DNA of 64,000 bases from Maribacter aquivivus (GTDB lineage Bacteria; Bacteroidota; Bacteroidia; Flavobacteriales; Flavobacteriaceae), in assembly GCF_900142175.1 (NCBI RefSeq), contig NZ_FQZX01000004.1:106998-170997 (forward strand), read 5' to 3'. The first letter of the stretch is position 1. Each line of letters opens with the position of its first letter. A model generated the notes under the pieces. That model was not told where the DNA came from. It searched no databases and saw only the letters and a program-made list of their open reading frames with translations. The translations under genes were made by a program, and so were the position numbers. Below, piece by piece: positions 7,098 to 49,814 of this stretch.

Positions 7098-9599
7098 TTA
7101 AAAAACAAATCCAAACGTACCGGTTACACCGAACTTTCTCGCATCTGGATTCTCTAAATAATTTCCTCTAAAATTAAAATCTAATCTGAATACCTTAAAG
7201 ATATTTCCTATTCCAAAAGAATATTCATAGTATATTTTTTCTGATGGTGCACGTAACGGTGTATTTACTGTTGCTGGTGCACTTAGGGCTATATTCTCAT
7301 CAGACAAATCTCCCCATACTCCGCGCAAAGCTACGATTTCCCTTAAATTATATTTCCTTAGAAAAGGAATTCTTGAGAAAAACCGTCCATTAAAATTATG
7401 TTGCAAATGAACTGCAGCATAAGTATCGGTAACAAATTCATAAAAATCTAAATTTGGAAAGGTACCATAGTTAGAGAAAAATGTTTGATTACCAGGCACT
7501 ACGCTTAAAAGTCCTAAAGGTACTTCACCAAATGTTTTACCCAATTCTACAGTACTTAACAACCTACCAAAACCACCTAATTGCCATGGTTGGCTATATG
7601 AAAATTGGAGCTTGCTATAGTCAAAATCACTATTCATTACACCCTTAGTCCCCTTTGTATAATTTAATAATATAGTACTGTAAGTATCATTGACATCTCT
7701 ACGCTCTACCCCAAAACCAATAGTTTTTTTACCAGGAGTATACAGCACCAATGCATTAAAATCGAATTGACGTATTTCTGACGAAACTCCTGTTGGAGAT
7801 TCTGGATTTACATAATCTAAACTAAAATCACCGGGCAATGCAGAACTCAAGGTTCTAAACGTACCACCCACAGATAATTTTAAATTGGTTATCGGTTCAA
7901 TTTCAAAATTAAGCGCACTAAGATTGATATTCGTTAATCTATTATTAGCACCTACCGTTAATAAAGAAGAAGAGGCAATACTTCTACCCAAGACATCATT
8001 AGTTGCGGTTAAACTAACGCCAAGCTGCTCTATATCTCTACGGTTACCACCAGAAACGATTAATCTGCTATTTTTATCTAATAGCATTTTACCCGACAAG
8101 CCGTGTTTAAATTTATGATCTTTGAATCCGTACGCAGTGTATCCTTCTATTCTCCAAAGATCATTTTGCCCATAGTAGGTTCTTGCTCCAAGTCGCACTC
8201 GCGCCCCTTCTGCAGTATTGTATCCAAAGAAATCATAAACAGAGCCTAAGTCTAAATTCCATTTATCTACCTCTACATAACCAGATCCTAAAATACTTAC
8301 AAAATTATAATAGGTTTTAAATTTTGGTACGGTTTTAAGAGTGTCTAGCAACTTATAAATACCCTTTTCATCTTTATTTAAACTTTCTAACCTGTTCTGT
8401 TCCCAAAAGGCATCATCTTTAATAATCTGGGTAACGTCTAAAGGGTTTCTATCTTTTTTATAGACCTCTCTTGGCTTAACCTTATTGAACTCGTAATTAT
8501 CATAAACACTTGTTCGCTTTCCGTATAACCCTTTTGATTCTTCTTTTTTGTTAAAACTAAAATCACTCAACATATAATCGCGTTTCAAAAGAAACACAGA
8601 ATCATTCATTACTTCAAAATCTTGCTCTATGTAGATTTCTTTTACCCAGTTGATATTAGCACTTTTGGTAACCTGAAGATTAATATTTTTCACCGCCCAC
8701 GTAGAATCATTTACCCAAAAATCCCCTTTAAAGGTCAATTCATTTTTACGCCGTGGATAGTATACAATATTATAACACCACTTATTATCTATAAAAGCAC
8801 TATCTCGAAGCGCATAATTATACACATCTACTCCGGTTTTTGATAGCGGACTAGTGAAACTTTTATCGAAAAATTTCAGGTAATTATTATAGACATCATA
8901 TTCTTGATATAAGTCTTGTACGAAAGCTATAATAGCTTGATTGTTTTCGAATCCGGAATTCTTATTCCCTAAAACTTCCTCTTTTTCCTCTTTGATTTTA
9001 TTATCACCGTAAACTTTAGAAAAAGTCTCGTTTAAAAAAATTGGCAAGTATGTTTTACCTGTTATACGAGAAGTATCTAAATCTTGAAAAACAAATTCGA
9101 GTCCTTTAAAAACCTTACTTTTTATAAGCGAACTATCTATCGTATTTAAATCGAACTCTACCTTTTCATACTTATCAAAAGCGTATTGATTAAACTGCCT
9201 AACACCGTTCTGGCGTTTCTTAGACCAAATTTTTCTAAGTATATCTACCGCAGGATTATTCTTTTTAGATTGCTTGCCAGCTATCAACACCACTTCGTTT
9301 AACTGCTCTGCAGCTTCAACCATGGTTATTTTTAAATCATAAACAACTTTAGAATCTAATTGAAGTTCGTAATCTGTATAACCTATAAAAGATATAATTA
9401 CTGTAGGGTATTCATTTTCAGACTCTAAATAAAACCGTCCATCATCATTTGTAATGGTACCTTCTGTAGAATTTTTAAAGAATACGTTAGCGAAGGATAC
9501 AGGCTCACCCTGCTCATCAATGACAATACCACCAATTTTAGTCTGGCCTTGAGCTATGAACACACATAGACTTAAGAATATGAAAATTATCCCTCTCAT
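7098..9599 (-). CDS. DUF5686 outer-membrane protein with carboxypeptidase-like N-terminal domain
   Basis: I chose the ATG at 9599 because it starts a clean signal peptide (MRGIIFIFLSLCVFIAQGQ). An ATG 14 codons upstream would put a poor leader in front of it. Residues 20-100 form a CarboxypepD_reg-like domain (GGIVIDEQGEPVSFANVFF) like that of SusC-type receptors. The remaining roughly 730 residues are beta-strand-rich and end in a FGVTGTFGFVF-type aromatic C-terminus, as expected for an outer-membrane barrel. This fits the DUF5686 family, whose function is unknown. No TonB plug domain is visible, so it is not a typical TonB-dependent receptor. No operon partner is evident. Confidence 0.75.
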   Translation of the reverse strand: MRGIIFIFLSLCVFIAQGQTKIGGIVIDEQGEPVSFANVFFKNSTEGTITNDDGRFYLESENEYPTVIISFIGYTDYELQLDSKVVYDLKITMVEAAEQLNEVVLIAGKQSKKNNPAVDILRKIWSKKRQNGVRQFNQYAFDKYEKVEFDLNTIDSSLIKSKVFKGLEFVFQDLDTSRITGKTYLPIFLNETFSKVYGDNKIKEEKEEVLGNKNSGFENNQAIIAFVQDLYQEYDVYNNYLKFFDKSFTSPLSKTGVDVYNYALRDSAFIDNKWCYNIVYYPRRKNELTFKGDFWVNDSTWAVKNINLQVTKSANINWVKEIYIEQDFEVMNDSVFLLKRDYMLSDFSFNKKEESKGLYGKRTSVYDNYEFNKVKPREVYKKDRNPLDVTQIIKDDAFWEQNRLESLNKDEKGIYKLLDTLKTVPKFKTYYNFVSILGSGYVEVDKWNLDLGSVYDFFGYNTAEGARVRLGARTYYGQNDLWRIEGYTAYGFKDHKFKHGLSGKMLLDKNSRLIVSGGNRRDIEQLGVSLTATNDVLGRSIASSSLLTVGANNRLTNINLSALNFEIEPITNLKLSVGGTFRTLSSALPGDFSLDYVNPESPTGVSSEIRQFDFNALVLYTPGKKTIGFGVERRDVNDTYSTILLNYTKGTKGVMNSDFDYSKLQFSYSQPWQLGGFGRLLSTVELGKTFGEVPLGLLSVVPGNQTFFSNYGTFPNLDFYEFVTDTYAAVHLQHNFNGRFFSRIPFLRKYNLREIVALRGVWGDLSDENIALSAPATVNTPLRAPSEKIYYEYSFGIGNIFKVFRLDFNFRGNYLENPDARKFGVTGTFGFVF

Positions 9600-38454: not shown

Positions 38455-38471
38455 AAAGTTTAATATTATTG

Positions 38472-38546
38472 TGGGATATACTGGATTCGAACCGGTGACC
38501 TCTGCCCTGTCAAGGCAGCGCTCTAAACCAACTGAGCTAATATCCC
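38472..38546 (-). tRNA. tRNA-Val (anticodon GAC)
   Basis: A 75-nt cloverleaf on the minus strand. The acceptor stem GGGATAT pairs fully with ATATCCC, the D arm is GCTC/GAGC, and the anticodon loop TTGACAG gives GAC. The T loop is TTCGAAT. The T stem is ACCGG against CCAGT, leaving one C-A mismatch at the middle pair. CCA is not encoded. It forms the left boundary of the alginate locus. Confidence 0.93.
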
Positions 38547-38624: not shown

Positions 38625-39896
38625 CTAGAAATAATCTAGCAATGCTACAACGCCATTATAAGAAATTACGCAAGAAAAGAAAAGTGCAGCAAAAAGTCCT
38701 AAATTAAGCCAAACTCCCGCCTTATACTTAGTCATTAAATTCTTGTTATTTATAAGAAGTATTATTCCTAATATCACCAATGGCAAAACAAACACATTAA
38801 ACACTTGAGATAGTATTTGCATTTGAATGGGATTAGCTCCATATACAGGAACTATCAGCGCAAATAATGAGGCTATTGCCGTAATTATTCTAAATTGTTT
38901 TGAACTAGTATCTAACTCCCCTGATTGATAATCTGCCAATAATATTGGAGCAATTAGTAAACATGGAAAAATTGATGATAAGCCAGCACTTAAAGTTCCA
39001 AAAAAGAAAAGTGTAAGGGCAAATTTACCAGCAACGGGTTCTAATGTATTCACCATATCCAATACTTGGGTTACTGGTTTCCCTTGATGAAATAAAGCCC
39101 CACAAGCTACAGCCATTACAGATGCACTTATAAAAAAAACAAGCGAAGCTGCAATTATTGCATCTTTCTTTTGTTGCGAACGATTTTTTATTGTCCAACC
39201 TTTTCCCTTCACAAAAAGTGGCCTTGAAAGAAACGTAGCTGCAGCCATGGTTGTACCAACAAAAGCAGCAACCATCATCTGACCCCCTTCAACTTTTGGT
39301 ATTGTCGGTATCAAACCTTTTACAACCTCAACAGGTAATGGGTACACCATAAACAAAGAAATTATGAATGAAAGCCCCATGATAGTTACAAAAATGACCA
39401 ATATTTTTTCAAAAAAAGCATACTTACCCACCATTAACAATCCATAAAATATAACAATAACAGTTATTGCTATTATTAAAACAGACTCATATTTGAAATC
39501 TACCAAATTTGGGAAGTAAATTAAAAATATCTCATAGATGACATTAGCCGAAATACCAAGAATTCCCATTAATGAATTCCACTGACCAAAAGAAATTCCA
39601 AGAATTATAAGAATAGCAATTAACTTACCCCACTTCAAATGTTTTTTAAAAGCGTAAAGTGCAGTTTCACCCGTGACTAAAGCGAAATTACCGTAAGCAT
39701 ACATTAACAAACCTGAAAAAATACAACTTAAAAGCAGCACCCATAATAGTTGCATACCATATGTGCTACCTGCCACAATCATTGACGTAACACTACCGGT
39801 GCCAATAGTATAGCCAATAGCGAATATTCCAGGACCAAATGCCAAAACTAAAGCCAATATTTTTTTCCAAATTGATAGTTTGCCTGAATTACTCAT
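38625..39896 (-). CDS. Nramp-fold transporter lacking the metal-binding motifs
   Basis: A 423-aa membrane protein with about 11 helices and the overall Nramp/SLC11 pattern (FGPGIFAIGY in TM1, then ALVTGETALYAF and GISFGQWNSLMG). The two motifs that bind the metal are gone. DPGN in TM1 reads GTGS (residues 32-35), and MPHN in TM6 reads MAAA (217-220). It should therefore not carry Mn2+ or Fe2+ by the known mechanism. It lies 76 bases downstream of the PUL's GntR gene on the same strand. A uronate, unsaturated oligoalginate or another alginate-linked solute is a possible substrate, but this is inference. Confidence 0.75.
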   Translation of the reverse strand: MSNSGKLSIWKKILALVLAFGPGIFAIGYTIGTGSVTSMIVAGSTYGMQLLWVLLLSCIFSGLLMYAYGNFALVTGETALYAFKKHLKWGKLIAILIILGISFGQWNSLMGILGISANVIYEIFLIYFPNLVDFKYESVLIIAITVIVIFYGLLMVGKYAFFEKILVIFVTIMGLSFIISLFMVYPLPVEVVKGLIPTIPKVEGGQMMVAAFVGTTMAAATFLSRPLFVKGKGWTIKNRSQQKKDAIIAASLVFFISASVMAVACGALFHQGKPVTQVLDMVNTLEPVAGKFALTLFFFGTLSAGLSSIFPCLLIAPILLADYQSGELDTSSKQFRIITAIASLFALIVPVYGANPIQMQILSQVFNVFVLPLVILGIILLINNKNLMTKYKAGVWLNLGLFAALFFSCVISYNGVVALLDYF

Positions 39897-39972: not shown

Positions 39973-40674
39973 CTAAATGTTATAGCAAAATTGATATAGG
40001 TTCTTAAAATGAACTTTCATTTTTGCTTTCGCCAATTGCGGATTCTGTTCCTTTATAGCATCAAAAATATCTTGATGCTCTTCTATGCCTCTAAATGCCA
40101 TATTCTTATCGCAAACATGGTACTTCTCAAAATTTGTAAGTATTTCTGGTGTAATAATAAGCATGAAAGTGTTCATAGTACTATTTCCGCTAGCTTTTGC
40201 GATTGCCAAATGAAATAGCAAATCTTCCTGTACTGCATCTTCACCTTTCTCGACCTTTTCACGATAAGCATCCAAAGCACTTTTCAATTGCTTTAAATCT
40301 GCATCTGTTCTTCTTCTAGCAGCAAGCCTTACGGTTTTTAGTTCTAAAAGAATTCTCGTTTCTACTAATGATTTAAAATCTGGCTCTTCTAGGCGAAGAA
40401 TATCATTCACCATACCGTTCATAGCAATCTGACCTATATCTGCTACAAAGGTTCCACTTTGAGGCTTTGAGATTAAAATTCCATAAAATTCTAATTTTTG
40501 AATCGCCTCTCGAACATTGCTTCGACTAACGTCGAATTTATCTGACAGCATTCTTTCTGATGGTAATTTATCACCAGGCTCAAGATTTTTATTATTCATT
40601 AAATCTCTAAGCTGTATTATAATCTCATTTTGTATTTCCTGATTTTCTGTCCTTGTGAGGATTTCTAATTTCAT
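39973..40674 (-). CDS. GntR-family regulator, FadR subfamily (FCD domain)
   Basis: An N-terminal winged helix (about 10-75) has GDKLPSERMLSDKFDVSRSN and REAIQKLEFYGILISKPQSG. The C-terminal FCD all-helical effector domain (about 90-233) has VETRILLELKTVRLAARR, DLLFHLAIAKASGN and EEHQDIFDAI with candidate metal-binding Asp/His residues. Subfamily members such as UxuR and ExuR bind TGGT-nn-ACCA-type palindromes and respond to uronate derivatives. Three such palindromes precede susC and a weaker one precedes this gene. It is therefore the likely PUL regulator, probably sensing an alginate breakdown product. Confidence 0.9.
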   Translation of the reverse strand: MKLEILTRTENQEIQNEIIIQLRDLMNNKNLEPGDKLPSERMLSDKFDVSRSNVREAIQKLEFYGILISKPQSGTFVADIGQIAMNGMVNDILRLEEPDFKSLVETRILLELKTVRLAARRRTDADLKQLKSALDAYREKVEKGEDAVQEDLLFHLAIAKASGNSTMNTFMLIITPEILTNFEKYHVCDKNMAFRGIEEHQDIFDAIKEQNPQLAKAKMKVHFKNLYQFCYNI

Positions 40675-40893: not shown

Positions 40894-41874
40894 TCACTCA
40901 TGCGTGACTTCTAATTCGTAATATTTAACTTTGGCAGATGCACCTGCATCTAGGGTTTGTAAATAGTTACCCGCTTTAAAATAGTTTTCAAAAACGCTCC
41001 ACTTTTGCATATGGATATCTTCATAGACAACGGAATCGGTTTCATTTAAAATCACTTCCAACCTTCCGTCTGAGGCAATAATCTCTAGAGTAAATGTATT
41101 ATTTCCTATATTCTCTGAGAACGTATGTCCTTCATTATCTTCCCATGCATCTGTATGTAAAATCTCTTCGTCTGTAGCATCAAGATCTTTAAGCTTTTTA
41201 GTAAGTACTCTTACTTTGCCTTTCTGCCAATAAATTTTTAACATTGGAGGAGCATTATTATCGTCTTCCCCTATTAAATCTCTTTGGGCATTTGTTAATC
41301 TACCATGAATTTGCATAACCAAAGTTCTATGAAAATCACCACCAGCATCTGTAGTAATTTCCGGAACTGATAAAGTCCCTTTCATTCGACCACCTTCTGT
41401 AAAAGTCCAATTAGTACTATTACTACCAGGCACCATTTGCTCTCTTAGCTCTGTTCTTGAATATGATGAATTAGCTGTAGACGAACCTGGTGATGTATAA
41501 AACACCAAAGAGCCATCTAAGGAATCATTGTACATGTATGGCAACAATCTTTCATCTGTAGCATAATCTACAATCTCCGGTGGCTCAACCTCATCTGGAC
41601 TACCAATTGGTAGTGTTACTTTCCAATTACTCAAATTTATATTTGGTAAAAAAAAGTCCACCCCTTCTACCTGTTCTTCTTCAACAACTACTTCTTCATC
41701 TGGTTCAGGAACTTCTTCTGTTTCTTCCTCAACCACTTCTTCTTCCTGAACAATCTCCTCTTCAGCTACTTCTGCATCGTTACTACAACTAGAAACGGTA
41801 AATACCATTACAAAGGCAAAAAAGCAATGTACTATCGTTGATTTACAAAAACGTAAAATATTATTTATAATCAT
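40894..41874 (-). CDS. PL7 alginate lyase, surface lipoprotein with acidic linker
   Basis: A lipoprotein signal ends at TVSSCSND. A strongly acidic Glu/Asp/Val linker of about 35 residues follows (about 33-67), then a PL7 jelly-roll lyase domain starting at LSNWKVTLPIG. The three PL7 motifs are present: SRTELREQ, QIH in VMQIHGRL, and YFKAGNYLQ. QIH (rather than QVH) is associated with cleavage at guluronate-containing sites. Acidic residues just after the lipid Cys fit export to the cell surface. The next-upstream gene is a second PL7 lyase, only 10 bases away. Confidence 0.92.
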   Translation of the reverse strand: MIINNILRFCKSTIVHCFFAFVMVFTVSSCSNDAEVAEEEIVQEEEVVEEETEEVPEPDEEVVVEEEQVEGVDFFLPNINLSNWKVTLPIGSPDEVEPPEIVDYATDERLLPYMYNDSLDGSLVFYTSPGSSTANSSYSRTELREQMVPGSNSTNWTFTEGGRMKGTLSVPEITTDAGGDFHRTLVMQIHGRLTNAQRDLIGEDDNNAPPMLKIYWQKGKVRVLTKKLKDLDATDEEILHTDAWEDNEGHTFSENIGNNTFTLEIIASDGRLEVILNETDSVVYEDIHMQKWSVFENYFKAGNYLQTLDAGASAKVKYYELEVTHE

Positions 41875-41884
41875 ATAATTCTTA

Positions 41885-42796
41885 TTAATGCTTCACCTCA
41901 AGTTCATAAAAACTGACCTTGGCAAATGAACCTTCATCTCTGCTTTGAAAATAATTACCTGCTTTAAAGTAATTTTCAAATACTCCCCATCTTTTCATAT
42001 TGAAATCGTTATAAACGGCATATTCAGTTTTATTTAATGAGACCACCATTTTACCATCTGTAACTTTTACTTCAATTTGAAATTTACCGAAGCCAACCTC
42101 TTCTTGAAAATTAAAGCCTTCGTCATCTGTCCAAGCTTCTTCATGTAATATGCCAGTAGAATTTACATCGGCATATTTTAATTTTTTTGTTTTGACTCTA
42201 ATTTTACCATTCTGCCAATATATCTTTAATACAGGCGGTGCATTATTGTCTTTTTGTTTTATTAATTCTTTTTGATCGTTAGTCAATCGACCATGTATTT
42301 GCAAAATAATCACTTTATGATATCTTCCATTCGTATCTCGAGAAACATCATCAACTGAAAGTTTTGCTTTTAAAGTACCACCTTGCTTAAATGTCCAATT
42401 GACATTATCATCTCCTGGAACCATTTGCTCCCTTAATTCTGACCTAGAATATTTAGTATTTGCTGTGGTCGCTGTAGTTGGATAAGCATAAAACGTTAAT
42501 GCTCTTTTAGTAGAATCATTATACATATAAGGCTTCAATATGTCATTTGTAGCGTAGTTCAAAATTTCTGGTGGCTCTACACTAATTGCCCCTCCTTTAC
42601 CACCACCTTCTGGAATAGTAACCTTCCAGTTACTTAAATCAATTTCTGGAAGCTTAACCTTCTTTTTCTTCTTCTTAGATTTTTTGATATTTACATCCGA
42701 TTCTGAAACGCTACTTTTCTGATTTTGAGAAGTAGCGTTTACAGATAGAAATAGTAATACCATAAATACCAATATTCCTTTTCGGGTGTTTTGCAT
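41885..42796 (-). CDS. PL7 alginate lyase, secreted, with lysine-rich linker
   Basis: A signal peptide (ILVFMVLLFLSVNATSQ) without a lipobox is followed by a short basic linker (NIKKSKKKKKKVKL, about 36-49) and a PL7 domain starting at LSNWKVTIPEG. Motifs are SRSELREQ, QIH in ILQIHGRL, and YFKAGNYFQ. The domain is clearly paralogous to the neighbouring lipoprotein lyase. This copy should be periplasmic or released, because no lipid anchor and no T9SS C-terminal domain are visible. The opposite linker charges of the pair are notable. The substrate is alginate, probably G-containing blocks. Confidence 0.92.
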   Translation of the reverse strand: MQNTRKGILVFMVLLFLSVNATSQNQKSSVSESDVNIKKSKKKKKKVKLPEIDLSNWKVTIPEGGGKGGAISVEPPEILNYATNDILKPYMYNDSTKRALTFYAYPTTATTANTKYSRSELREQMVPGDDNVNWTFKQGGTLKAKLSVDDVSRDTNGRYHKVIILQIHGRLTNDQKELIKQKDNNAPPVLKIYWQNGKIRVKTKKLKYADVNSTGILHEEAWTDDEGFNFQEEVGFGKFQIEVKVTDGKMVVSLNKTEYAVYNDFNMKRWGVFENYFKAGNYFQSRDEGSFAKVSFYELEVKH

Positions 42797-42806
42797 AAAT
42801 TACAAA

Positions 42807-44249
42807 TTATGGATTCACTGAACGAACCTTCACATTATCTATAAATGCGTCTTTAGGAGTTACTGCATAAAACATTATAGCCACTTCACCACTATCATTA
42901 GCAGTAAATGGAATTTGTACTAATGTACCAGCACCGTCTGTTGTATCTGAGAATTTACCCTCTGCTACGAAACCTTCGTTAAACCCTAAGTTATCACCAA
43001 GATTATCTACGGCATCTGCGCCATCATCGTACTGACCATCTAAAATTAAACCAACTATTTTTCTTCCTCCAATAGGATCTGTTCCGCTATCATCTTTAAT
43101 AGCATATTGATACTCTAAAATATAATCTGCACCAGGTACTAGATTTAACTCTTGATAAGCATACCTTGAACTAGAAGATCCAAATTCTCCACCAGATTGA
43201 CTTGATGACCATTTAGCTCCTCTTGTCTTACTACCGGTATCAACACCATCATAATCTTGATTAGAACCATCAGAACTTGAACCGAACGGGTTTGTTTCTC
43301 CATCTGTAAACGTTGACCATTTCCAGAAATCTTGACCATCTTCAAAATCACCATTCAAAATGGTTGACCCTGTCATTCTTGACATATAGATATTATCTAC
43401 TGTAATTGTTGCATGATCATTTGCAGTACCGCTAGAACCTAATTCAAAGAGAATTGTTTCAAATTGAGAAACAGGTGATGAAAAATCTGTAGCTAAATCA
43501 AAATCAAGCCCAGTCCACTCGCCATCCATCAAATCTATTTCATCAATAACATGACTAGTACCATTTGTACTATCTACCAACGTAATTTTTAATTTATCGA
43601 TACCAGTAGCAAATTCAGAATACACATCAAAATGAATATCGTTAGAACCAACACCGCTGTAAAAAGCATCTGCTGCAACAACTTCATCACTCAATGCGAA
43701 AACTCCTGTATCACTATGTAATCTAGAAAACTCTACCAAATTATTTCCTGATTCCAAAACAACTGCTTTACCACCAGTACCTGCTGAACCAACAGAACCT
43801 GCATCGGTAAATATATTTAACAAATTATATCTTTTTACGTCTGGTGAAGAAGGAGCATTGTCAATAGACTGTACTGTATGCTCTACCGTGATATCTTCTG
43901 ATTTTGTTAAATCTGATTGACCAGCTGCCTTTGTTGTAACCGTTATAGTATAATCTGTAGATGCATCAACGTTAGAATAGTCATATGTAGCAGATTCTCC
44001 TTGAAGTGCGTTTAGAGGAGTTGACCTATCACCAAAATCAATAACATATGAATCTACACCAACAGTTAATGGTGTAACGGTAACAATGGTACCATCTCCA
44101 CTTGATGACACTTCGAAACTTGAAAATACACTTTCTATTGAACCACCTGACGAAGCGACTGGTTCAATTGGAGTATAGTCATCCTCATCACATGACATAA
44201 TAAGGCCCGTTATTAACAAGGCACTTATTCCTTTTTTTATTAAACTCAT
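42807..44249 (-). CDS. PUL surface lipoprotein with PKD-like and two carbohydrate-binding-like domains
   Basis: A lipoprotein signal ends at GLIMSCDEDDY. The acidic residues after Cys suggest surface export. Residues about 38-125 form a PKD-like domain (SYVIDFGDRSTP, YTITVTTKAAG). A CBM-like beta-sandwich follows (about 140-300, KAVVLESGNNLVEFSRL, ITVDNIYMSR). A second one runs from 300 to 480 (LNGDFEDGQDFWKWSTF, YAYQELNLVPGADYILEYQY, AFIDNVKVRSVNP). No catalytic motif is visible. It fits the SusE/F-like surface glycan-binding position, downstream of susCD and upstream of the lyases. The ligand is presumably alginate. Confidence 0.8.
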   Translation of the reverse strand: MSLIKKGISALLITGLIMSCDEDDYTPIEPVASSGGSIESVFSSFEVSSSGDGTIVTVTPLTVGVDSYVIDFGDRSTPLNALQGESATYDYSNVDASTDYTITVTTKAAGQSDLTKSEDITVEHTVQSIDNAPSSPDVKRYNLLNIFTDAGSVGSAGTGGKAVVLESGNNLVEFSRLHSDTGVFALSDEVVAADAFYSGVGSNDIHFDVYSEFATGIDKLKITLVDSTNGTSHVIDEIDLMDGEWTGLDFDLATDFSSPVSQFETILFELGSSGTANDHATITVDNIYMSRMTGSTILNGDFEDGQDFWKWSTFTDGETNPFGSSSDGSNQDYDGVDTGSKTRGAKWSSSQSGGEFGSSSSRYAYQELNLVPGADYILEYQYAIKDDSGTDPIGGRKIVGLILDGQYDDGADAVDNLGDNLGFNEGFVAEGKFSDTTDGAGTLVQIPFTANDSGEVAIMFYAVTPKDAFIDNVKVRSVNP

Positions 44250-44407: not shown

Positions 44408-45229
44408 TTAATTAAGTCTATCGATACTAATTTTAGAAAATCTGCATTCAGTACCTGCATATTCGATATTAAACCTCATGTTTTCTGTTTCATCACCTGT
44501 TGTAAAAGAGAATGATGTTTGCACGTAAGACGAAGCTTGATCGGTTAATGGAATTTCTTGGTTAAGAAAAACAGCTTGAGTATCAGCGTCTTCTATTAAA
44601 AGTGTACCGGCAGAACTACCAGTTGTTTTACTTACATACCAAAAAGTTACTTCATATGTTGCACCAGCAACCACACGAATACTTTGATCAAGAAAATTAG
44701 AACTACTACTTAATTTAGCTGCTCCATTATCTTCTGGTGGTGATGGTGAAGAACTAGCGGAATAAGAACTTGTGGTTCCTCTATCTACCCCAGCCCATGG
44801 TGTTCTTGGACTACATAAGAAATCTGGACATTGAAAGGCCGCTACCAATTCATCTACAACTACAACATCAATTGTAACAGTGGATGTTACACCGTTACCA
44901 TCACTGGAAACCAAAGTAACAGGAAAAGTACCTTCACCAGAAAATTGAAAAGAAGGATCACGATCTGTTGAAGATTCCCCCCCACCAAAATCCCATAAAT
45001 ATGAGGATGCTTCTGTTGAAAGATCTGTAAAATTAATTACTGTAAAATCTTCTTGATCTGCTGTATAGTCAAAATTTGCCTCTGGAAATATAGTATCTGC
45101 TTTAGAGTTAGAGTCCGGCAGATCATCTCTAAATGTATCAGAACCAACACAACCAACAAAAGAACTTGTAAACACTACACTAAAGAGCAACAAGGTTGTT
45201 TTTCGGAAAATATTTTGTTTAATTTTCAT
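44408..45229 (-). CDS. PKD-domain surface lipoprotein of the PUL
   Basis: A lipoprotein signal ends at SFVGCVGSD. Residues about 48-130 form a PKD domain (PEANFDYTADQEDFTVINF, SSYLWDFGGG, GEGTFPVTLVSSD). Residues about 135-273 form a galactose-binding-like beta-sandwich (LDQSIRVVAGATYEVTFWYV, MRFNIEYAGTECRFSKISID). It has no enzymatic signature. It follows susD by 20 bases and is probably a surface glycan-binding accessory protein of the SusCD complex. A structural spacer role is also possible. Confidence 0.8.
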   Translation of the reverse strand: MKIKQNIFRKTTLLLFSVVFTSSFVGCVGSDTFRDDLPDSNSKADTIFPEANFDYTADQEDFTVINFTDLSTEASSYLWDFGGGESSTDRDPSFQFSGEGTFPVTLVSSDGNGVTSTVTIDVVVVDELVAAFQCPDFLCSPRTPWAGVDRGTTSSYSASSSPSPPEDNGAAKLSSSSNFLDQSIRVVAGATYEVTFWYVSKTTGSSAGTLLIEDADTQAVFLNQEIPLTDQASSYVQTSFSFTTGDETENMRFNIEYAGTECRFSKISIDRLN

Positions 45230-45249: not shown

Positions 45250-46692
45250 TTAATATCCCGGGTTTTGTGTTAATAGTCCGCCGCTTATATTTATTTCTCT
45301 TGCAGGAATAGGTAATAACAATTTTCTTGCATCAAATACATATCCCATTTCAGCAGAATGAGCACTTAACACAGCTTCAGCTACACCGAATCTAAGAAGA
45401 TCGAACCAACGTTGATTTTCAAATGCCAATTCTACTCTTCTTTCAACTAACAAATCTTCTTTAGTAATTGTGGAAACAGTTGCTGTTAACCCAGCTCTAT
45501 CTCTTACCGCTTGAAAAGAAGCTATCGCAGCAGAACTTGTAGTTGATGCACCGCCTGCCATAATTGCCTCTACATGCATTAAAAGAACATCTGCATAACG
45601 TAATGCTATGTAATCGTTACCTGCATCTCTAGCACTTGCCCCGTAAGAAGGTGGAGTAGTCGTAATATCAGACCCTTCAGGTAAAAACTTAATTACTTCG
45701 TTCGATGTGCCAAAAGTAATATACGATTCAGCTGTTCTATTACCGCCATAGGCAGCAAAGTCTAAAACTAAATTTTCGTTTACAATATTTTGACCATCTT
45801 CAGAACCTGCGCGAGTTGAAGAAGTAAATTCAGATGAAAAACTTTGACTTTCAGAACTATTACCAGTTTGGTACTGAATTGCAAAAATGATTTCATCGTT
45901 CAATTCACTATAAAAGACATCATGAAAGTTACTTTCTAAACTAAAATTACCACTATTAACAATAGACTCACATAGTTGTTGTGCAGCACTGTAATCTGGA
46001 GATTCAAGAGAAAGATAAACTTTCGCCAAGATACCTTGAGCCGCAGCTTTTGATGCTCTTGATTTAGATGAATTATCCAAAACACTTACCGCCTCTTCTA
46101 AATCGGCAATAATTTGATCATAAACCTGAGCTTCTGCTATTCTAGTAAAAAGTGCCTCATTATCTGTAGGTCCTACCACTGAAGTTACTAAAGGCACTGC
46201 ACCAAACATTCTAACTAACTTAAAGTATGCATATGCTCTTAAAAATTTAGCTTCAGCAGTATATCTTGCTTGATTGCTTTCATCTGCAACATCAACAAAA
46301 TCTAAAATGTTGTTAGCTCTAAATATTACTTCGTACATAGACGCATAATAATCTTCTGACTCTACATTATTAGCATTAACAACATATCTATGAAAATCGG
46401 CTTTAGAACCCTCTAGTGTTGCATTTCTTGTATTATCTGTACGATGCTCAGTTAAAAGGTGTTCAAATTGAACTCCTCTGTTGAAGTCACCAATATTAGA
46501 TTCGGTATTACTATTTACACCTTGTAATGCATCGTAAATTCCATAAACCCCAGACAATACGTCTGCATCCGATTGAAAGAACCCATCTACAGCAACTGCC
46601 GTATCTGGTAATGGATTTAAAAATTCCTCAGTATCACAGGAAACAAAAACGGACACTGTTACGGCAAAAATTATATATTTTATATGTTTCAT
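45250..46692 (-). CDS. susD: SusD/RagB-family glycan-binding lipoprotein
   Basis: An outer-membrane surface lipoprotein (480 aa) that caps the SusC channel and captures oligosaccharides. The lipobox is VFVSCDTEEFL. The TPR-like helical core shows LSGVYGIYDALQG, YEVIFRANNILDFVD, AKFLRAYAYFKLVRMFGAVPLV and QGILAKVYLSL. The C-terminal RagB/SusD block has YIALRYADVLLMHVEA, FQAVRDRAGL, LLVERRVELAFENQRWFDLLRF and the LPIPAREINISGGLLTQNPGY end. It starts 17 bases after the susC stop. The ligand is presumably alginate oligosaccharides. Confidence 0.95.
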   Translation of the reverse strand: MKHIKYIIFAVTVSVFVSCDTEEFLNPLPDTAVAVDGFFQSDADVLSGVYGIYDALQGVNSNTESNIGDFNRGVQFEHLLTEHRTDNTRNATLEGSKADFHRYVVNANNVESEDYYASMYEVIFRANNILDFVDVADESNQARYTAEAKFLRAYAYFKLVRMFGAVPLVTSVVGPTDNEALFTRIAEAQVYDQIIADLEEAVSVLDNSSKSRASKAAAQGILAKVYLSLESPDYSAAQQLCESIVNSGNFSLESNFHDVFYSELNDEIIFAIQYQTGNSSESQSFSSEFTSSTRAGSEDGQNIVNENLVLDFAAYGGNRTAESYITFGTSNEVIKFLPEGSDITTTPPSYGASARDAGNDYIALRYADVLLMHVEAIMAGGASTTSSAAIASFQAVRDRAGLTATVSTITKEDLLVERRVELAFENQRWFDLLRFGVAEAVLSAHSAEMGYVFDARKLLLPIPAREINISGGLLTQNPGY

Positions 46693-46709: not shown

Positions 46710-49700
46710 TTAAAAGTCAACGTTAAGACCAAATGTTACCGTTCTAAAGATTGGCGTACCTGCTCTTTGAGAACCATAAGCTCTTGGATTGCTACCATCT
46801 ATATGTTCTGGATTAAAACCATGGTAATCATCTGCTGTAATGTAAAGCAAATTCTGAGCTGTAGCATAAACTCTTAAGCCACTTACCCCTATACGTTCTG
46901 CCACATCCTTTGAGAAATTATAACCAAGATTTACATTACGTAAAGAGAAGTAATCTGCACTTGCAATAACATCACTAGTCAGTACCTTTTCTTGAATGAA
47001 TGAAACATCAGATACCAAACCATTAGCCACTGCTTCTAATTCTCCACCACTTCTTGTTCTATTACCGAACCAGTTGTAGAAATATTGATCACCAATATTA
47101 TTAACCTGAGCACCTAAGCTACCCTGAACCATAAATGAAAAATCAACATTTCCAAATTTGAATTCATTGGTAAAACTGTAAACTAAATCTGGATAAGGAC
47201 TACCTAAGATAGTTTTGTCTTCTTCAGTTATCAATCCATCACCATTTAAATCTTTAACGATGGTATCATCAGATTGACCATTGATTCTGTTCCAAGGACT
47301 ATCAACATATGTTGTTCTAAAAGAAGTTTCATCAAAAGCTTCTTCATCTACAACGTACCCCCAGAAAGAAGATATTGGTTCTCCTATTCTATTAATCCAT
47401 TGAGAATTTCTGCCATAATCATCTTCAATTAAAGCATTGTTAGAATCTCCGAAGCTTAATAATTCATTTTTATTCGTAGAAGCGATAAATGTTGAATTCC
47501 AAGAGAAATTTTCATTTGAAACATTTTTAGTTCTCAACTCAAGCTCAACACCTTTGTTTTGCACTTCACCTAAATTAACAATACCACTATTAAACCCAGA
47601 TATGTAAGAAACAGGATTGTTTAATAGCAACTCATCACTTGTTCTTTCATAATAATCAATAGAACCAGAAATTCTATTATTGAAAAAACCGTAGTCTAAA
47701 CCAACAGTAAATTCTTTAGAAGCTTCCCATTGCAATAAAGTGTTTGCAATATTAAGCGGTGAAACACCAGCGGCAATATTACCGCCATCAATTGCATTAG
47801 AATTCTGTAATAACGCTAAATAAGGCCATGAGTTAACAATATCATCACCTACATTAAAATTCTCTGCCCCGGTAAGACCGTAACTAGCTCTGAATTTTAA
47901 GGTATTAACTGCGTCGCTATTTAACAAGAAATTTTCTTTAGCAACATTCCAACCTACCGATACAGCAGGGAAGTTACCCCATTTAGAATCTATACCAAAT
48001 ACCGAACTACCATCTCGTCTAAAAGAAGCGTTTACTAAGTATTTACCTTTGTATGCGTAATTAACCCTAGCAAAGTAACCTAACTTTTTAAGCTCAGTAT
48101 TAATTTCTGTAGGAAGGTCAACTAAAGTAGCTCCTTGAAAGTTTTTAAGTAAATCATTTGAAAAACCACTACCTGTAGTAATACTTTCTTCAGATTTTCT
48201 TTTCTGAATTGTTGCACCTACCAACAAGTTTAAATCATGATCATCACCAAATGTTTTGGTATAGTTTAATGTGTTATCAGAAATAATTCTAGTTCTGAAT
48301 CTATTCGCTAAATAATAAGAAGCTCTAGAATTACCACTTGCATGATTTAATACACCGTCATATCTGGTTCTTTTTCTTTGCTCAAGAGTTACACCCAATG
48401 ATGTTTTAGCGGTAAGACCGTCTAAAAGCTCATAACTTAAGTATGTAGAACCGAATAATTTAGTATTATATTCAAAATGCTCTCTTTCTACATACTGTGC
48501 GTATGGGTTAGAATCACCAGAAGTACGTGGTCTACTATCGTTACCATCTCCATTTACATCTAATTCAACAAGATGATTTTCGTAGAAATAATCCCCTACA
48601 CCAACATCTGGATAGTTATCTCTATTAATAAACTGAAGTGATTCTTCTGTGTGATAAATAGGTAACCAAGGAGATTGCCGTGTAGGATTGTGAATAGAAG
48701 TTGGCAATCTTCTTTGTTTTGTGTAAGAAGGTGTAGCTCTAATTCCAAATCTTGCTCTTTCGCCAATTTTAGAATCTACTTTCATATTAGCTGAGAACAA
48801 TTTATAGTCATCAGTAATTACAACACCCTCATCATGAAGATATCTTAAAGATGTACTAAACTTAGTATCTTCAGAACCACCTCTTGCAGATAAAGAATGA
48901 CTGGTTATAGCGCCTCCGTCAAAGAAAACATCTTGCCAATCTCTATCAACACCAGTTGCTCTAACTAATAATTGAGCATATTGTGTTTCATTAGAAAGAG
49001 TACCTGTAGCTGCTTGCTCTATTTTAGCCCATTCAGACACACTCTTTCTATAATCGTCACTACCATGAGCACCTTTAAGACCTGTATATGTTTGATAGCT
49101 AAATTTAGTTTTCCCAGCCTTACCACTTTTCGTAGTAATTAAAATTACACCGTTAGAACCTTCACTACCATAAATGGCAGCAGAAGCAGCATCTTTCAAT
49201 ACTTCAAAAGATTCTACATCGTTCATATCAAGATTTCCAAGAAAGTCAGAACTTACAACCACACCATCAATTACTAACGCAGGACCTGAATCAGCAGTTA
49301 CAGAACCAATACCCCTAATAGTAATGGTCGGTGCCCCACCAGCTTCAGCGTTTGTTGCTTGAATGTTCACCCCAGATACCTGACCTATTAAAGCGTCATC
49401 AACCCTTGATACTGCTATTTGATCTAAAGTTTCGTTAGTCACTTTAGAAATAGAACCTGTAACGGTAGATTTCTTCTGAGTACCATACCCAACCACTACT
49501 ACTTCATCAAGCTGACTTGCATCTTCTTTCAAAGTAACGCTAACAGTTTTCTGAGCAACAATTGCTACTGTTTCTGTTGTATACCCTATATATGAGAAAC
49601 GTAAAATGTCACCACTAGTTACCTGAATGGTAAAATTTCCGTCAAAATCACTTTGAGTACCTCTTGTTGTATTTGCAACAACAATATTTGCGCCAGGTAT

Positions 49701-49814
49701 CGGCACATTGTTTGCATCTGTTACCGTACCTGATAGATCATAGGTGTCTTGTGCAAATAATTGAATGTTGACAAGCAACATTACAACCATAAAAAGTTTT
49801 AATTTAAAATTCAT
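46710..49814 (-). CDS. susC: SusC/RagA-family TonB-dependent outer-membrane receptor
   Basis: A 1034-aa importer barrel. Signal peptide 1-21. A carboxypeptidase-like N-terminal domain spans about 25-100 (LSGTVTDANNVPIPGANIVV, GYTTETV). The SusC-type box is LDEVVVVGYGTQKK. The plug has RVDDALIGQVSGVNIQ, ITIRGIGSV, VIDGVVV and DAASAAIYGSEGSNGVILIT. The barrel follows and ends in FRTVTFGLNVDF. It works with SusD, and needs TonB-ExbB-ExbD, a set of which is at 52-54 kb. It is the first gene of the PUL operon, with a predicted leader of about 350 bases. Confidence 0.95.
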   Translation of the reverse strand: MNFKLKLFMVVMLLVNIQLFAQDTYDLSGTVTDANNVPIPGANIVVANTTRGTQSDFDGNFTIQVTSGDILRFSYIGYTTETVAIVAQKTVSVTLKEDASQLDEVVVVGYGTQKKSTVTGSISKVTNETLDQIAVSRVDDALIGQVSGVNIQATNAEAGGAPTITIRGIGSVTADSGPALVIDGVVVSSDFLGNLDMNDVESFEVLKDAASAAIYGSEGSNGVILITTKSGKAGKTKFSYQTYTGLKGAHGSDDYRKSVSEWAKIEQAATGTLSNETQYAQLLVRATGVDRDWQDVFFDGGAITSHSLSARGGSEDTKFSTSLRYLHDEGVVITDDYKLFSANMKVDSKIGERARFGIRATPSYTKQRRLPTSIHNPTRQSPWLPIYHTEESLQFINRDNYPDVGVGDYFYENHLVELDVNGDGNDSRPRTSGDSNPYAQYVEREHFEYNTKLFGSTYLSYELLDGLTAKTSLGVTLEQRKRTRYDGVLNHASGNSRASYYLANRFRTRIISDNTLNYTKTFGDDHDLNLLVGATIQKRKSEESITTGSGFSNDLLKNFQGATLVDLPTEINTELKKLGYFARVNYAYKGKYLVNASFRRDGSSVFGIDSKWGNFPAVSVGWNVAKENFLLNSDAVNTLKFRASYGLTGAENFNVGDDIVNSWPYLALLQNSNAIDGGNIAAGVSPLNIANTLLQWEASKEFTVGLDYGFFNNRISGSIDYYERTSDELLLNNPVSYISGFNSGIVNLGEVQNKGVELELRTKNVSNENFSWNSTFIASTNKNELLSFGDSNNALIEDDYGRNSQWINRIGEPISSFWGYVVDEEAFDETSFRTTYVDSPWNRINGQSDDTIVKDLNGDGLITEEDKTILGSPYPDLVYSFTNEFKFGNVDFSFMVQGSLGAQVNNIGDQYFYNWFGNRTRSGGELEAVANGLVSDVSFIQEKVLTSDVIASADYFSLRNVNLGYNFSKDVAERIGVSGLRVYATAQNLLYITADDYHGFNPEHIDGSNPRAYGSQRAGTPIFRTVTFGLNVDF

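Follow-up and report, generated by a model that had tools for sequence, protein, structure and literature searches.

An Nramp-related protein without the DPGN and MPH motifs in a Maribacter alginate locus, a candidate sugar-acid carrier

What does a member of the Nramp family carry when its gene is the last of an alginate PUL and the motifs of its metal site are gone? This question is raised by a locus in a 64,000-nucleotide stretch of the Maribacter aquivivus genome (contig NZ_FQZX01000004.1, hereafter the window), in which SusC, SusD, a PKD protein, a further PUL protein, PL7, PL7, GntR and Nramp genes follow each other in this order, all on the minus strand (Table 1). The Nramp gene comes after the PUL's GntR gene on the same strand, as an earlier note on this DNA had stated, with a gap of 76 bp. 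Directly beyond the Nramp gene, at 38471-38546, lies a tRNA-Val (gac) gene, and tRNA genes are common places for inserted blocks. Promoter and terminator scans gave about the same yield as shuffled sequences. The window PUL is the same kind of locus as AlgPUL2 of Maribacter dokdonensis 62-1, a small alginate PUL with two PL7 genes (PMC8072126), and from its layout and genus we infer that it matches this published locus. As far as the main text of that paper goes, the words transporter, metal, symporter and permease give no match.

Table 1. Positions in the window of the genes of the PUL and of the diagnostic codons in its last gene.
Feature	Position	Strand	Remark
Nramp-related membrane protein, 423 aa, last gene of the PUL	38625..39896	-	PF01566 3.5e-63
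TM1 GTGS codons, residues 32-35, replacing DPGN	39792..39803	-	aligned with E. coli MntH
TM6 AAA codons, residues 218-220, replacing MPH	39237..39245	-	aligned with E. coli MntH
Arg225 codon	39222..39224	-	Arg in 27/27 family rows, 0/11 other Nramp-family rows
GntR/FCD regulator	39973..40674	-	76% identical to the GntR of the genome's main alginate locus
PL7-type alginate lyase	40894..41874	-	PF08787 4.5e-52
PL7-type alginate lyase	41885..42796	-	PF08787 1.5e-52
Further PUL protein	42807..44249	-	no Pfam domain above its cut-off
PKD-domain protein	44408..45229	-	PF18911 2.2e-9
SusD-like lipoprotein	45250..46692	-	PF07980 1.1e-27
SusC-like TonB-dependent outer-membrane transporter	46710..49814	-	TIGR04056 779.6 bits

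The ORF of the Nramp gene is complete, with an ATG start codon, and PF01566 (Nramp) is the sole Pfam family on its product (214.3 bits, cut-off 29.8). The match covers positions 1-355 of the 357 in the profile, which places the protein in SLC11/Nramp. It also passes the NF037982 model, labelled 'Nramp family divalent metal transporter' (80.5 bits, cut-off 50); the score against the MntH model is far below threshold (94, cut-off 430). The closest solved structure by sequence is PDB 7qia (E 2.2e-16, and 3.3e-53 in a profile search), which is the Mg2+ carrier EleNRMT (PMC8806188), and the MntH and Nramp entries of the PDB are lower-ranked sequence matches.

Alignment with E. coli MntH placed GTGS opposite the DPGN of TM1, in agreement with the earlier note, and A218-A219-A220 opposite the MPH of TM6. 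The note had read the second change as MPHN to MAAA; the metal-site residues are indeed replaced, but this register is one off, the Met of MAAA being M217, which stands one position before the MPH-aligned A218. Because M217 precedes the aligned position by one residue, the coordinating Met is an Ala in the window protein. Arg225 stands at the His of MPHVIYLHS in MntH. Acidic residues are absent from residues 98-120, the TM3 stretch opposite D131/E134 of DraNramp and the acidic pair of MntH; D131 and E134 are proton-pathway residues of DraNramp TM3. The TM3 register shifts by one between two alignments (S108 and G111 in one, L109 and I112 in the other). Canonical SLC11/Nramp proteins (E. coli MntH, DraNramp) are of the same family by sequence and of similar length, but the window protein has GTGS and AAA for their DPGN and MPH, a TM3 without acidic residues, and a gene in an alginate operon rather than in a metal-regulator context, and it is not of the canonical type. 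As judged from TM1, TM3 and TM6, it fits the general Nramp-related class, that is, a PF01566 protein without DPGN/MPH and without the proton-pathway residues of TM3. The description of the motifs as erased thus holds for the loss itself and overstates it as a peculiarity, since passages of a January 2026 preprint (PMC12873925) already describe a large set of Nramp-related proteins without DPGN/MPH, and call the groups beyond the NRMT-like and MntG-containing ones entirely uncharacterized.

G32, T33, G34, S35, A218, A220 and R225 are identical in 39/39 aligned rows (the window protein and 38 orthologues), position 219 is Ala in 36 and Ser in 3, and mean column identity over these rows is 84%. 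Since the same residues occur in all 39 rows, the metal-site change is no local accident. The alignment also bears on whether the gene could be a decayed, functionless remnant at the end of the PUL. The absence of the MFS-SDR-KdgK-KdgA block from this locus in the window lineage, while GntR-Nramp is present, would be in line with such decay; the intact ORF, the level of column identity, the unchanged GTGS, A218, A220 and R225, and the retention of the gene across many genera, with two Marinifilaceae among its carriers, speak against it. Decay was rejected on conservation in the 39 aligned rows, and we regard it as highly improbable.

Of 199 Flavobacteriaceae genomes sampled, 24 carried an orthologue, defined as a protein of at least 60% identity to the window protein, in one copy each. 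A second group, at 36-42% identity, had 15 full-length members spread over 12 genomes, not counting the partial relatives C153 and C123 of G037, and the remaining Nramps had about 31% identity or less. PL7 was present in 23/24 orthologue genomes and in 26/175 others (Fisher p 1.6e-15, which overstates independence because the genomes are related); the 49 PL7-positive genomes include one under the Pfam cut-off (G146). A PL6, PL7 or PL17 gene lay within 20 kb, measured from start to start, of 21/24 orthologues, 2/15 second-group copies and 1/24 other Nramps, the last being those of about 31% identity or less from the 32 genomes in which PL6, PL7 and PL17 had each been looked for. Fifteen of these other Nramps are in orthologue genomes, and one of the 15 has an alginate lyase within 20 kb. 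Seventeen lyase rows (three weak PL6 rows, and PF05426 rows not of PL17 type) were excluded, none of them within 20 kb of any counted Nramp. The orthologues without a lyase at this distance were those of G129, at a contig start with PFK and KdgA adjacent; G070, an orphan beside a DHFR gene in a genome with PL6, PL7 and PL17-type genes elsewhere; and G099, with an SDR adjacent. The earlier note had proposed a survey of motif-less members beside these lyases, and the counts support a recurrent tie to alginate loci: the orthologues are not equally common outside carbohydrate loci, which the note had named as a refutation.

The operon layout was read in named loci, which are the best 80 of 212 confirmed. 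These came from Maribacter, Zobellia, Cellulophaga, Arenibacter, Eudoraea, Flagellimonas, Winogradskyella and other genera, and also from Ancylomarina and Labilibaculum (Marinifilaceae). In the commonest layout the Nramp gene stands directly after kdgA, at the end of SusC-SusD-GntR-MFS-SDR-KdgK-PFK-KdgA. A same-strand upstream gene lay within 250 bp in 74 of the best 80 of 212 and within 100 bp in 69, and in the 74 it was KdgA (45), GntR (7), GntK-6PGD (6), PFK (5), SDR (4) or, more rarely, PL6 (2), gluconokinase (2), a second Nramp (2) or KdgK (1), the gene labels in these loci, in the main alginate locus of the window genome and around the wider relatives being BLASTP matches to clusters that were each typed by one representative. 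The exceptions were L085 and L099 (divergent TIM-barrel gene), L137 (divergent), and L100, L119 (ribonucleotide reductase) and L141, where the upstream gap exceeds 250 bp. The flank, counted up to 10 kb with many loci cut by contig ends, showed a lyase in 37 of the best 80 of 212 loci; with alginate-pathway labels counted as well, 77 loci were positive (76 without L085, which is counted on one opposite-strand SDR alone). Some copies were orphans (L046, L119 and L137). Two further observations were made in these loci. A fusion of about 627 aa, joining a shikimate/gluconate-kinase-like domain to 6-phosphogluconate dehydrogenase, is encoded near the Nramp gene within alginate loci (L043, L047-L050, L054, L056 and L057) and suggests a gluconate branch in alginate use. 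In L110 and L111 adjacent ORFs after KdgA are both of the Nramp family, either as a tandem pair or as a split gene.

Part of the earlier case for an importer was that no MFS symporter is present. None is in the window PUL, and a whole-genome search with the MFS of alginate operons (PF07690; best model TIGR00893, a galactonate carrier, with a score below its cut-off) gave no match on the window's contig; the genome does have this MFS at G000:C1:176737, with one weak partial match on the same contig. The gene is in the main alginate locus, which runs PL6-PL7-PL6-PL17-KdgF-Nramp and then SusC-SusD-GntR-MFS-SDR-KdgK-PFK-KdgA. The argument that without an MFS the Nramp protein must be the importer was therefore rejected, and most relatives have the MFS and Nramp genes together in one locus: the two are within 20 kb, start to start, in 18/24 orthologue genomes and share a locus in 50 of the best 80 of 212 named loci. 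The MFS was found in 23/24 orthologue genomes, the window genome among them. At E 1e-60 it was present in 33/34 PL7-positive genomes tested (22/23 with an orthologue and 11/11 without), including all 10 picked from the 26 PL7-positive genomes without an orthologue and also G014, which has a second-group copy. The Nramp orthologue itself is in only 23/49 PL7-positive genomes, and because the 10 picked orthologue-less genomes keep the MFS, this Nramp is evidently not indispensable for alginate use. G129 has no MFS at E 1e-60 (best match 1.6e-42, 28% identity) and was not used as an MFS-less case, since its Nramp operon begins at a contig end. As the MFS occurs in nearly all orthologue genomes, the Nramp protein is an addition to the MFS and not its replacement. 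The two share loci and presumed substrate class, but they belong to unrelated families, and from these patterns the window Nramp probably serves as a further carrier of sugar acids beside the MFS.

The window genome holds three further Nramp-family genes above the Pfam cut-off, none with DPGN. One is in the main alginate locus, and its product is 37-38% identical to the window Nramp. Another, L001 (G000:C3, 1438-3372), has GPGT/VVPYN motifs and lies directly before two pxpA-/pxpB-like ORFs; these presumably encode 5-oxoprolinase proteins, which would make L001 a PxpT-type gene. L004 (G000:C1:1629835), the fourth Nramp-family gene of the genome, is very divergent and has GTSH in TM1.

A tree of 38 hand-chosen rows, 27 in the branch and 11 from elsewhere in the Nramp family, was built for the wider relationships. 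Seven alginate-A rows and 20 others formed one clade (support 100/99) that excludes MntH, L001 of the same genome, a hydantoinase-linked archaeal copy and others; the window protein, for which the note had proposed such a tree, is in this supported clade and apart from MntH. GTGS and R225 were present in 27/27 rows of the clade, and F25, G28, R225 and P311 in all 27 and in 0/11 other Nramp rows. The window protein has GTGS in TM1, Arg225, F25, G28 and P311, and so belongs to this GTGS/Arg branch. L170 is on a long branch and its placement is unsure; the L004 and L187 rows are long too. Subclades named alginate A (with the DGOK copy), alginate B, nag, GH20 and uxa each had 100% bootstrap. The TM6 residues after TT vary among the context groups and largely agree inside each, as would be expected if they read the substrate, which they may; because the context groups are clades, these differences are no independent evidence of such reading.

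The contexts of these relatives point to different sugars. Adjacent carbohydrate genes were found for 13/15 second-group copies (nagA and/or nagB 7, alginate locus 2, uxaC-uxuA 2, ManA-like 2); of the remaining copies, L075 lies at the start of a contig, and L070 has GH10 as its neighbour and an unclear context. In two genomes (G006 and G162) the Nramp gene, L072 and L073, is inside a uxaC-SDR-Nramp-uxuA operon, where an ExuT-type symporter is the transporter expected. The best matches to the alginate-operon MFS in these genomes reached only E 2e-7 and 2e-5, and each genome carries a second uxaC elsewhere. A 58%-identical relative directly precedes genes for 2-keto-3-deoxygalactonokinase (DGOK) and a KDPG-type aldolase. 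In a sample of the phylum, 20/296 genomes were positive and 17 copies were newly read, of which 13 had clear contexts (GH20-type 9, nag 1, DGOK 1, alginate lyase 2) and L156 and L169 weak ones; no sugar gene was among the typed neighbours of L168 and L170. A sample of the class (4/295 positive) added L176-L178, around which no clear sugar operon was found. Some GH20 operons with an Nramp gene also contain an SSF symporter. Beside the nag-type copy of L064 there is a different Nramp-related gene (8046-9296, GPGS in TM1), with a dihydrodipicolinate-synthase-like gene two genes away.

Outside Bacteroidota, a 40%-identical member is present in 546/5,426 complete E. coli genomes. It lies between dnaB and qorA (L184 6019-7248), with a CoA-transferase/enoyl-CoA hydratase pair on one side, an FAD oxidoreductase on the other and a LacI-type regulator adjacent. 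L179 (CP054241.1) carries the label of an E. coli plasmid of 834 kb; its Nramp region has the chromosomal genes alr, dnaB, tyrB and a quinone oxidoreductase gene. The Nramp reading frame is disrupted there, and other genomes have intact copies. With CoA-transferase genes in E. coli and without a clear sugar gene at L168, L170 and L176-L178, an exclusive sugar link of the wider branch was rejected. More distant Nramp-related proteins occur with CoA-transferase and thiolase genes or with hydantoinase/oxoprolinase genes, and at four more such loci no partner of this clarity was seen, except for one dihydrodipicolinate-synthase-family gene. An Nramp copy beside a metal regulator keeps DPGN and MPH. 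We would see small organic acids, and in Bacteroidota sugars, as the common thread of the Nramp-related contexts.

These contexts leave room for another cargo: the MFS might carry all of the monomer, and the window protein might move oligosaccharides, export an overflow acid or handle a small carboxylate of an unrelated kind. The presence of the MFS in so many of the loci and orthologue genomes, its retention in the 10 PL7-positive genomes picked without an orthologue, and the CoA-transferase, thiolase and hydantoinase/oxoprolinase genes beside relatives elsewhere are consistent with this. The KDPG aldolase gene as the commonest direct neighbour, and the uxaC and DGOK relatives, which point to C6 sugar acids, are not what it would lead one to expect, and we think another cargo rather unlikely.

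A second alternative is that the window protein still carries a divalent cation (Mg2+, Mn2+ or Ca2+), either to supply the induced kinases and phosphofructokinase with a cofactor or to handle Ca2+ freed from alginate gels. The nearest solved structure is after all that of an NRMT, a group whose motif is DxxG in TM1 and TxxA/T in TM6 (PMC8806188), and the T-x-x-A of TM6 is common to both. The window protein, however, reads GxxS in TM1, with Gly for the Asp that NRMTs keep, and has an invariant Arg five residues past the AAA of TM6 and a sugar-operon context; with TxxA in TM6 only, it is not an NRMT by motif. Passages of PMC10448178 report YcsG/MntG of B. subtilis as a Mn importer that raises cell Mn. 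PMC12873925 counts this protein with the Nramp-related groups, so motif loss is no proof of lost metal transport. This Mn role conflicts with the 5-oxoproline role of a 50%-identical homologue, PxpT of C. glutamicum, an Nramp-family protein described in passages of PMC13274462 as needed for growth on 5-oxoproline, and this precedent in the family makes a non-metal substrate plausible. L001, the only representative of the PxpT type in the tree, is likewise Nramp-related and without the TM1 Asp, and its gene is in an organic-acid catabolic operon, but it falls outside the 27-row clade, has GPGT/VVPYN rather than GTGS and the Arg, and is 25% identical to the window protein, which thus does not group with the PxpT/YcsG type. 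No metal regulator was among the typed neighbours in the sugar clade, and the sister subclades track different sugar pathways, which a general need for cations does not predict. We consider a remaining role in cation transport unlikely.

Published work on alginate loci contains one comparable gene. In full-text searches of open-licence PMC papers, the only Nramp found in an alginate-PUL context was that of Alteromonas 76-1, drawn in its alginolytic systems and named a metal-ion transporter in the one passage of PMC6431674 that has the word, the legend of Fig. S3; by that description it is in the same kind of locus as the window gene. The sugar-operon branch of Nramp was not found in print in the full text of open-licence PMC papers, where queries combining the Nramp family with hexuronate gave nothing relevant and those combining manganese transport protein with alginate lyase in Bacteroidetes gave no match. 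None of the matches listed (title and abstract start, open-licence PMC) tied a divalent metal cation transporter to alginate or KdgA, and nothing relevant on Nramp with sugar transport, the LeuT fold or GlcNAc in Bacteroidetes was among the matches listed for open-licence PMC. The passages seen of four alginate papers (PMC12323373, PMC5613140, PMC8073546 and PMC8072126) name no metal carrier.

The family of the window protein, the loss of its metal site, its membership of the operon and its family-wide context are observed. The lost metal-site residues and the seat in an alginate operon together make it probable that the cargo is a sugar acid and not a metal. The note's idea of a non-metal cargo, plausibly a uronate, is strengthened by the residue loss, the proximity of lyases and the operon context, and loses its argument from a missing MFS. 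In the LeuT fold the unwound segments of TM1 and TM6 hold the substrate between them, and since small residues replace the metal ligands at this site, a larger ligand would have room. We propose, with confidence that is about evenly balanced, that the protein is an inner-membrane SLC11/Nramp secondary carrier that would no longer bind transition metals and would import an alginate-derived C6 sugar acid; its transport direction, exact substrate and coupling ion are what we infer. SusC/SusD would bring oligo-alginate to the periplasm, where lyases would cut it, and the MFS symporter would take up the main monomer, unsaturated uronate/DEH. The Nramp-related protein would take up a second, similar acid; candidates are a saturated end residue (mannuronate or guluronate), some other hexonate, and DEH itself at different kinetics. 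The imported acid would feed SDR-KdgK-KdgA.

More tentatively, and with somewhat less than even confidence, the whole GTGS/Arg branch can be proposed as a carbohydrate-carrier branch of SLC11, in which small residues would have turned the metal site of the LeuT fold into a sugar pocket. Its subclades would each be specialised, for alginate uronates, for the hexuronates of Uxa/Uxu, for the amino sugars of nag/GH20 and for acids of the 2-keto-3-deoxygalactonate pathway, and databases would mislabel them as divalent metal transporters. The branch supplies a testable substrate class from operon context and diagnostic residues, with members in the cultured marine genera Zobellia, Maribacter and Cellulophaga. 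If the proposal is true, sugar acids would join the cargoes of the metal-carrier fold, the NF037982 label would need correcting for this branch, and models of algal-polysaccharide breakdown would gain an inner-membrane step.
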